Assembly (NCBI GenBank): GCA_002729725.1 | Contig: PBYS01000117.1 | Location: 62,001 to 126,000 of the forward strand | Direction of reading: 5' to 3' | Length of the DNA: 64,000 nt | Source of the DNA: Puniceicoccaceae bacterium | GTDB lineage: Bacteria; Verrucomicrobiota; Verrucomicrobiia; Opitutales; Coraliomargaritaceae | Shown: piece after piece, positions 56,133 to 59,198 of the stretch | How positions within the stretch are numbered: the stretch's first letter is position 1 | Layout of the letters: each line of letters begins with the position of its first letter | The notes under the pieces: generated by a model | What the model saw: the letters and a program-made list of their open reading frames with translations, nothing else | Databases searched by the model: none | Told to the model about the DNA's origin: nothing | Translations under genes and position numbers: made by a program

Positions 56133-59100
56133 ATGTCGAAACCAGCATCTAAAGCGACTTCTCAGTTTGAACCAGCTACACGCCTCGCACTCTTGCGTTC
56201 GCTGTGGCGCAGTCGTCTTGGCGACTTGCGGGAGCAGAGTTTGATTCGTCAGGGCAAGGGCTGGTTTCATATTTCGGGCATGGGGCACGAGGCTTTGGCG
56301 GCAGTTGCGCTTTCGCTGGAGCCAGAGGATTATGCATTTCCTTATTATCGGGATCGCGCCTTTTGTTTGCAGCGTGGCTTAACGGATCGTGACATGGCAT
56401 TGGCGTTTTATGCCAAACGAGAGTCTTCTAGTGGCGGGCGTCAGCTGACGGGGCACTTTAGTGACCGTAAACTGAATATTTGGAGTCATCCATCCCCTGT
56501 TGGGGCGCATCTACTACCCGCCTGCGGCGCGGCTTGGGGGATGCAGTTAGATGGCAAGGATGGCGTCGTCTACGCCTCTTTGGGAGAGGCTTCGGCACGG
56601 CAGGGAGATTTCTTTGAGGCGGTTTGTTTTGCGAAAGAGCGCAAATTGCCCGTGGTCTTTGTGGTGGAAGACAATCGCATCGCGATTAGCACTTCGACCG
56701 CGGAAACCAATCCCATTGCGCTGGGAGTTTTAAATTCTGAGGAGTGGCAGCGAGTCGATGGCAGTGATGTAGAAGCTGTTGCGGCTGCTGGAAAGGTGGC
56801 GGTGGCGCATGCACGTGCGGGCCAGGGTCCTGCCTTTATTTGGTGTGATGTCGAGCGTTTTTCAAATCACTCAAGTGCGGATGATCAGCGGATGTATCGT
56901 GCTGCAGATGAGCTTGAAGCGATGCACGCTCGTGACCCGATTGCAATCTTTCAGCAAGCCATGATCAAGGATGGTCTCTTAACAGAGGCCAGTGCGAAAG
57001 CTCTGGAAGAGGAGATCCGTGAGGAGATGCGAGCTGCTTATAAAGCCGCCGGCGCCGACGTGGATCCCTTGGCTGAAGAGTGTGACTTGCACTTGCATGG
57101 GGCGCTTTCGACTCCGGATGCGATGCCCAAACTCGAGCTGGGCGAGTCGTGCCGGATTTTGGATGCGGTGAATCAGACTTTCCACAGTGCGATGGATACG
57201 ATGCCTGAGGTGGTCTTCTTTGGCGAAGACATTGCCGATCCTAAGGGCGGGGTCTTTAATTTGACGAAGGGTCTTTCCAAGAAGGATCCATTGCGGGCAG
57301 TGAATTCTCCGCTAGCCGAGTCTACGATTATGGGAGTCTCGGTGGGGCTGGCATCCTATGGCAAGCGGCCCTGTTTTGAGATTCAGTTTGTTGATTTTAT
57401 TTACCCCGGTTGGAATCAATTGGTCTCCAATATGGCGACACTTCGCTGGCGTAGCTTTGGACAATGGAAGTGCCCGCTTGTGATTTATGCGCCTTGTGGT
57501 GGCTATCTGCCTGGCGGAGCTTTATGGCATAGCCAATCTGGAGAGGGCTCCTTTGCCCGGGTGCCTGGTATTCGAGTGGTGGTGCCTTCTACTCCGGCTG
57601 ATGCGGCGGGACTCTTTTGGACTGCCTTGCATGGCGAGGACCCCACCATTATATTATTACCCAAGCATTTAATGTGGGCGGAGCAACGCGTTCAGCAGGT
57701 GGCAGCTGTGCCATTGGGCGTGGCACGCACTGTGCGCGAAGGCTTGTTGGTGACTTTAGTGACTTGGGGCAATTGCGTCGAATTGGTTGACGAGGTGCTG
57801 GAGACCATGGAGGGGGATGTGGATGTCGAGGTGATCGACTTACGCTCGATTCAGCCTTGGGATCGTGAGGCGATTGCAGACTCGGTGCAAAAGACTGGGC
57901 GCCTGATGATCGTGCAGGAGGACAATATAAGTGGCAGCGTTGGGCAGATGATTGTCGCGGAAATGTGTAGTGATGAGGACGTGTTACGTAGTTTAAAAAG
58001 TCCGCCTGTCATTGTTTCGAAGGCCGATGTGCATGTCGGTTTTAATCCTATTTACGAGTATGCGGCCTTGCCGGATCGCGAACGAGTGGCGGCGGCACTT
58101 GAGCGCTTACTTGCATCCACACTTCAAACCACTCTCGAACAAGCGCGTGCACCCGCTCCTATGCGTGCTTCTGTGACAGACTCCTCAGATATGATTGCTT
58201 CAGAAGAATCGGCTCCGTTTAGCTCTAGTAAAATGATCACTGTGCCGATTTTGGGCGAAGGTATTCGCGTGGCACGAGTGGTATCTATCCTCAAGCAAAG
58301 TGGGGATGCTGTGCTAGCGGATGACGCACTTTGTGAAGTTGAAACAGATAAGGCAGTCTTCCCTATTGAAAGTGATGAAGATGGAGTGCTGGGTGATTGG
58401 TTGATCTCGGAGGGAGATGAGGTTGAAGTGGGACAGGATTTAGTTCCGCTCCAGATGCAGGGGGGGGAGCCTGATTCTGATGCAGTGTCGAGGCCTGCAG
58501 TCGCAGCAGAAGCGTCCGAGTCTGAGGCGCAGCCTGAAGCAGGGCTGAAGCGTCAGCAGGGTGGACTATCACCTGAAGCGGTGAAGCAGTTACAGGGCAT
58601 TGTGCCAGCAACTATTGAAGTGACTTGTCGCTGGGAGAATGTTCGAGACGCCCGTTTGCGTAGTAAGAAGACGCCGGGAGGCACACTTTCGACGGCGACC
58701 ATGTCTGCCTGGGCGGTCTTGCAAGCGATGAAGAAGCACGAGCGTTTTGCATCGGTAGTGCGTGGCCATGAATTGGTGTACGATCCAGATCGTTTCGACC
58801 TTGGAGTGGCTGTTGCGCTGCCGGGCGATGTCTTGGAAACCGCGGTCGTCAAACATGCGAATGCAATCGAATGGGATGCTTTTTCGGATGTATTCAATGA
58901 GGCACTACGCCGGACGCGTCATGGTGAGGTTGAGTCTAAGAATCGGGTGCCTTTGAGCATCTCTAGTATGGGCGCTTATAATGTGCGCTCGGCCATCCCT
59001 ATTGTCGTGCCACCTTCATTGGCGACACTCTTCATCGGAGCTCCGTATGTGCTTCCTGATCCCAAATCTAAAACGAGCGAGACCATGGAAGTGGTTTCCT

Positions 59101-59198
59101 TGGTACTGACCTTTGACCACCGCTGGATCAATGGAGTGGGGGCTGCTTCCTTCCTCTCCGATGTGCGCAAAGGGATCGAGCGCTTTGATTTAGTTTAG
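56133..59198 (+). CDS. Fused 2-oxoacid dehydrogenase E1alpha-E1beta-lipoyl-E2 protein
   Basis: A 1021-residue fusion of three complex components. About 1-330 is E1alpha ([33 protein letters not shown] as thiamine-diphosphate site, VVEDN). About 340-680 is E1beta ([35 protein letters not shown]). About 700-785 is a lipoyl domain with the target Lys740 in EVETDKA. From about 825 on comes an E2 acyltransferase-like domain ending [16 protein letters not shown]. There the catalytic His996 is kept, but the usual Asp of DHRxxDG is Asn1000. No peripheral subunit-binding motif is seen. It likely oxidises a branched-chain keto acid or pyruvate. E3 is not adjacent. The next gene overlaps its stop by 1 bp. 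Confidence 0.9.

Follow-up and report, generated by a model that had tools for sequence, protein, structure and literature searches.

Branched-chain 2-oxoacid dehydrogenase (BCKDH) complexes are composed of E1alpha, E1beta, E2b and E3. E2 domains form trimers. The E2p of Azotobacter vinelandii is an ordinary E2 subunit with a peripheral subunit-binding domain (PSBD) and a separate E1. The actinobacterial 'two-in-one' E2o-E1o enzyme OdhA (KGD) is a homohexamer that reconciles E1 dimers with E2 trimers (PMC10415282). The gene described here was found in a stretch of 64,000 nucleotides (positions 62,001 to 126,000 of contig PBYS01000117.1, Puniceicoccaceae bacterium, a marine member of the Verrucomicrobiota), hereafter the window. 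E1alpha, E1beta, a lipoyl domain and an E2 acyltransferase domain are encoded in a single frame (Table 1). The product is probably a complete, catalytically competent branched-chain (2-oxoisovalerate-type), CoA-acylating 2-oxoacid dehydrogenase on one chain, in need only of E3 in trans.

Architecture of the fused protein

The open reading frame starts with ATG at 56133, ends with a stop codon at 59196-59198 and contains no internal stops in translation. Pfam matches above the cut-off on the 1021-residue chain are E1_dh 31-309 (196 bits), Transket_pyr 344-513 (103 bits), Transketolase_C 529-651 (74 bits), Biotin_lipoyl 702-771 (59 bits) and 2-oxoacid_dh 819-1019 (92 bits). No Pfam match to the E3_binding domain (PSBD) is present anywhere in the chain; its place in canonical E2s is occupied here by the second linker, 36 residues in length. 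The full-length AlphaFold2 model, built with 41 orthologues, has a pLDDT of 84.0, with confident E1, lipoyl and E2 parts and two disordered linkers between them. Modelled alone, the E2 domain reaches a mean pLDDT of 88.9, and all 50 PDB matches listed by Foldseek for this model are E2 catalytic cores. The PF00198 match begins at profile position 23 of 232; compared with the profile, the E2 domain lacks part of its start, a caveat for reading it as a competent enzyme.

The original prediction of a single-chain E1alpha-E1beta-lipoyl-E2 protein without subunit-binding domain is confirmed by the order of the Pfam domains, the missing PSBD match and the unbroken frame. Its description of the E2 domain as near-complete is fair, given the extent of the profile match and the E2-core fold, and the motif DHRWING was given correctly, with His996 and Asn1000 in place. 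No stop or frameshift, named there as a refutation alongside relatives with the same Asn and normal E2 activity, separates the domains in this chain or in the 49 fetched loci with an unbroken frame. An assembly chimera or a frameshift artefact is ruled out by many unbroken orthologues with the same domain order. The E2 fold, the catalytic motif and a lipoyl Lys on the same chain are those of an E2 subunit; the PSBD is lacking. By its domains the fused protein is not a standard E2 subunit, though predicted to work like one.

Table 1. Features of the fused gene in the window and location of related fusions
Feature	Residues	Position	Strand	Basis
E1alpha-E1beta-lipoyl-E2 fused 2-oxoacid dehydrogenase	1021 aa	56133..59198	+	complete ORF
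E1alpha domain, ThDP-binding	31-309	56223..57059	+	PF00676, 196 bits
E1beta domain (pyrimidine-binding and C-terminal domain)	344-651	57162..58085	+	PF02779, PF02780
Disordered linker 1, E1beta to lipoyl	664-697	58122..58223	+	pLDDT <50
Lipoyl domain	699-775	58227..58457	+	PF00364
Lipoylation motif ETDKA	Lys740	58350-58352	+	within lipoyl domain
Disordered linker 2, lipoyl to E2	777-812	58461..58568	+	pLDDT <50, no PSBD match
E2 acyltransferase catalytic domain	814-1021	58572..59195	+	PF00198, 92 bits; Foldseek
Catalytic motif D995-H996-R-W-I-N1000-G1001, preceded by F994	994-1001	59115..59135 (motif)	+	conservation in 41 orthologues
KASIII-type fusions		L070-L076, L078, L100-L129, L143		other Verrucomicrobiota genomes

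Neighbouring genes

The ORF at 59198-60061 (+) begins on the last base of the fused gene's stop codon and encodes a small protein with ATPase-cat_bd and HMA metal-binding domains as in P-type copper ATPases; the ORF contains no ATPase part. At 12 loci, the window included, a relative of this protein is encoded close to the fused gene. About 1.6 kb downstream of the fused gene, the opposite strand carries lipA and lipB (60788-63038, -). Relatives do not share this arrangement, so a functional link to the fused gene was rejected and the proximity is taken as coincidence. In the 444-residue product of 61704-63038 (-) a glutamine-amidotransferase-like domain is in frame with LipB (octanoyltransferase). 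The same fusion recurs in a congener (G039, 84%); LipB is separate in most relatives.

Distribution and conservation

About 46 distinct full-length orthologues with a C-terminal E2 (E2-type) are recognized, mostly in Opitutales and related Verrucomicrobiota, with identity down to 45%. In 49 fetched loci (about 46 distinct) the frame runs uninterrupted for 950 residues or more, with the same domain order. Broken or cut frames are L015 and L027, on MAG contigs, and L035 and L013, which run off contig ends. The homologous-locus search yielded 35 loci, including Coraliomargarita sp. SDUM461004 (84%) and many MAGs of Puniceicoccaceae, Opitutia and Opitutales. Also among them, at 45-46% identity, are a Blastopirellula MAG and two further MAGs that group with it. 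Phylum-wide, among 289 genomes, matches covering the E2 domain in frames longer than 1000 residues are present in about 20 genomes of Verrucomicrobiota.

E1_dh, Transket_pyr and Transketolase_C domains, the ThDP motif and the catalytic His residues place the N-terminal part with E1 of the heterotetrameric type. His246 and Asn181 of E1alpha are invariant in the 41 aligned sequences. His466 of E1beta is kept in 40/41, and the adjacent Ser467 is conserved. The lipoyl Lys is present in all 40 orthologues readable at the position of Lys740. Asp995, His996, Asn1000 and Gly1001 are invariant in 41/41. The one-chain architecture is, on this evidence, real, old and conserved.

The ThDP/Mg motif of the window protein reads GEA...DN, with Glu152 (56586-56588) replacing Asp. 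Of the 41 proteins of the E2-type, to which the window protein belongs, 24 have G-Glu-A and 17 have G-Asp-A.

Sister clade with a ketosynthase III domain

The phylum-wide search also yielded frames of about 1100-1180 residues that match the window protein only through the lipoyl domain. C-terminally they carry a FabH-type ketosynthase III (KASIII), with Pfam ACP_syn_III and ACP_syn_III_C and NCBIfam beta-ketoacyl-ACP synthase 3 above cut-off. By motif search the catalytic triad is present as Cys in 30/31, His in 30/31 and Asn in 31/31. This fusion occurs in 36 of 388 Verrucomicrobiota genomes; 34 of the 36 match the KASIII-type query over the whole length (45-80% identity) and two are partial. 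In the maximum-likelihood tree of the E1alphabeta part, the E2-type and the KASIII-type proteins each form a group and are sisters to each other (SH-aLRT 99-100), and both are separate from the PDH-like and the stand-alone E1alphabeta; because the deep branches are long, neither the finer order nor the root is certain. A stand-alone FabH is also kept in 15/15 KASIII-type genomes tested. The same 15 genomes contain one to three PF00198 matches each, mostly canonical E2s.

The second locus of genome G057 (L089) resembles a KASIII fusion in length; it was rejected as a PDH-type E1alphabeta with lipoyl domain. At L029:5986-8200 (+), in a Verrucomicrobiales MAG, E1alphabeta (663 residues) is followed by an ORF of ~80 residues that is a lone lipoyl domain. 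No E2 is adjacent, and the next gene resembles apolipoprotein N-acyltransferase. In the tree L029 branches beside the E2-type proteins.

The simplest reading of the KASIII-type architecture is that the lipoyl-bound acyl group would pass straight to the ketosynthase Cys. The sister clade may prime fatty-acid synthesis, possibly branched and CoA-independent, directly from lipoyl. KASIII in the place of E2 implies that the C-terminal acyl-acceptor module is swappable. Opinion is evenly balanced on the wider proposal that Verrucomicrobiota possess a single-chain dehydrogenase with an exchangeable acceptor module, in which E2 would pass the acyl group to CoA and KASIII would condense the lipoyl-borne branched acyl group with malonyl-ACP and thereby begin branched fatty acids, no free acyl-CoA being needed.

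Active site, substrate and acceptor

Canonical E2s of the same phylum read DHRxxDG in 21/21 scanned, both other E2s of the window genome included, and the mean column identity of the fused E2 domain is 44% vs 57% for the whole chain. The E2 domain might on these grounds be a structural core with catalysis impaired by the change of Asp to Asn1000, transferring slowly or to an unusual acceptor; such impairment is judged highly improbable. The wild-type E2p core of A. vinelandii (PDB 1EAA) reads SYDHRVINGAAAARF (DHRVING), with Asn614 at the position equivalent to Asn1000. The DHRVIDG of entry 1DPC is an engineered mutant (N614D), and entry 1DPB reads DCRVING; both are among the entries that address what Ser558, His610 and Asn614 do. 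In the E2o of Escherichia coli, D379A at the equivalent position keeps 9.5% of complex activity, and Asp374-His375 is the most important pair (PMC5986005). This pair corresponds to Asp995-His996, invariant in the fused clade. A dead E2 through Asn1000 is rejected in view of the A. vinelandii Asn and the E. coli substitution, and the invariance of the four motif residues in 41 deeply diverged sequences indicates a site that is under purifying selection instead of decaying. Asn is fixed in 41/41, against Asp in the 21 canonical E2s, and so marks the fused clade as a whole and not a decayed copy; it appears compatible with activity, as a natural variant known from a classic E2 enzyme. The poor transfer expected in the original prediction is accordingly unsupported: the same Asn with normal E2 activity occurs in a characterized homologue, A. 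vinelandii E2p, although not in an assayed orthologue. Nor is a different acceptor, also proposed there, indicated for the E2-type clade; a different acceptor module does occur in the sister clade.

As to substrate, the alternatives to weigh are an additional pyruvate dehydrogenase, which would form acetyl-CoA, and an enzyme of the acetoin type. PDH E1 and BCKDH E1 are closely related, and the best NCBIfam matches are PDH E1 models, all scoring far under the cut-off. The closest solved homologue of E1alpha is that of the Thermus 2-oxo acid dehydrogenase (1UM9), the best PDB match of E1beta is 1UM9 chain B (E 7e-62), and for both halves 1UM9 ranks ahead of pyruvate dehydrogenases among solved structures. 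A Ser-Pro motif in E1alpha (residues 121-122) is common to 1UM9; the human PDH E1alpha sequence differs there. The window genome has a complete PDH set on C79 (E1alpha, E2p) and an OGDH set on C98 (E1o, E2o, E3), and the family searches by which its paralogues were collected detected no E1/E2 pair besides these and the fused protein; the third 2-oxoacid dehydrogenase slot therefore falls to the fused protein. A pyruvate or acetoin enzyme is judged highly improbable. That the acyl group goes not to CoA but to an acyl carrier protein, or straight to a ketosynthase, is judged unlikely. The idea is suggested by the sister clade, where KASIII takes the place of E2 behind a shared E1alphabeta-lipoyl stem, and by the window genome itself, which lacks methylcrotonyl-CoA carboxylase (MCC) and has three KASIII genes. 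Against it, the E2 fold and catalytic motif match CoA-dependent E2s, and acyl-CoA enzymes are neighbours in distant orthologues.

The branched-chain, CoA-acylating enzyme is thus preferred. In relatives only 46-50% identical, the fused gene immediately follows FadJ-like genes in L092 and L093 and an enoyl-CoA hydratase gene in L028; in L095 an enoyl-CoA hydratase gene and an MCC-beta-like gene are nearby. The MCC-beta-like carboxylase (68-81% identity) is present in 11 of 21 genomes with an E2-type protein (L095 and 10 further) and at high identity in none of the 20 tested genomes with the ketosynthase version. The acyl-CoA neighbours and the co-occurring carboxylase point to a branched-chain enzyme making acyl-CoA. 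The gene neighbourhood within the window is not metabolic, which counts against this explanation. The window genome lacks an MCC-beta orthologue and has only a 32% paralogue; therefore the product may in that lineage enter branched fatty-acid synthesis, not leucine breakdown. Two lipoamide-dehydrogenase-like genes, on C98 and C39, could supply E3.

Proposed mechanism and assembly

We infer the branched-chain substrate and the CoA acceptor, as well as the action of E3 in trans and an assembly that combines dimers of E1 with trimers of E2. E1alphabeta, as one polypeptide, would use ThDP to decarboxylate the 2-oxo acid and would reductively acylate the lipoyl group on Lys740 of its own or a partner chain. 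Its two flexible linkers would let the lipoyl domain swing over to the C-terminal E2 domain, the active site of which would lie where the subunits of an E2 trimer meet, and E2 would move the acyl group to CoA by ordinary His996/Asp995 chemistry. E3 (dihydrolipoamide dehydrogenase), the sole component absent from the chain, would act in trans and re-oxidize the lipoyl arm by collision. With E1 already attached by a covalent link, the PSBD, which normally docks E1 or E3, would have become dispensable and been lost. Like OdhA, the protein might assemble its E1 dimers and E2 trimers into a hexamer; assembly driven by the E2 end, as first proposed, seems reasonable by analogy.

Significance

If true, the 2-oxoacid dehydrogenase would be cut to one chain plus E3 and be far simpler than complexes of megadalton size; E1, lipoyl arm and E2 would occur at a fixed 1:1:1 stoichiometry, without subunit-binding domain. 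Such a one-chain enzyme would be a clean system for asking what the PSBD and cage assembly are for. The sister clade would offer a direct test of whether lipoyl-bound acyl groups can prime a ketosynthase without CoA. No report of a lipoyl-based link from 2-oxoacid oxidation to fatty-acid initiation was found in the open-licence literature. Neither was a description of the E2-type or KASIII-type architecture, a provisional result that is weak as absence.

Comparison with known systems

The fused protein has the same catalytic domains and residues as BCKDH complexes. It differs from them in carrying E1alpha, E1beta and E2, and also the lipoyl domain, on one chain instead of separate chains, and in the absence of a PSBD. 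With OdhA/KGD it shares E1 and E2 activities in one polypeptide. OdhA has an N-terminal E2 and a single-chain E1o, is specific for 2-oxoglutarate and has no lipoyl domain of its own, borrowing that of E2p; the fused protein has the reversed domain order, an alphabeta-type E1 and its own lipoyl domain. It does not belong to the OdhA/KGD type (NF008907, 42 bits against a cut-off of 878), and in view of the unlike domain order the two presumably arose by independent fusions. With the E2p core of A. vinelandii (1EAA, 1DPB-1DPD) it shares DHRxxNG with the same Asn. The KASIII fusions of Verrucomicrobiota share the E1alphabeta-lipoyl stem, at 33-39% identity with the window protein, and carry a FabH-type KASIII with a Cys-His-Asn triad where the window protein has E2.
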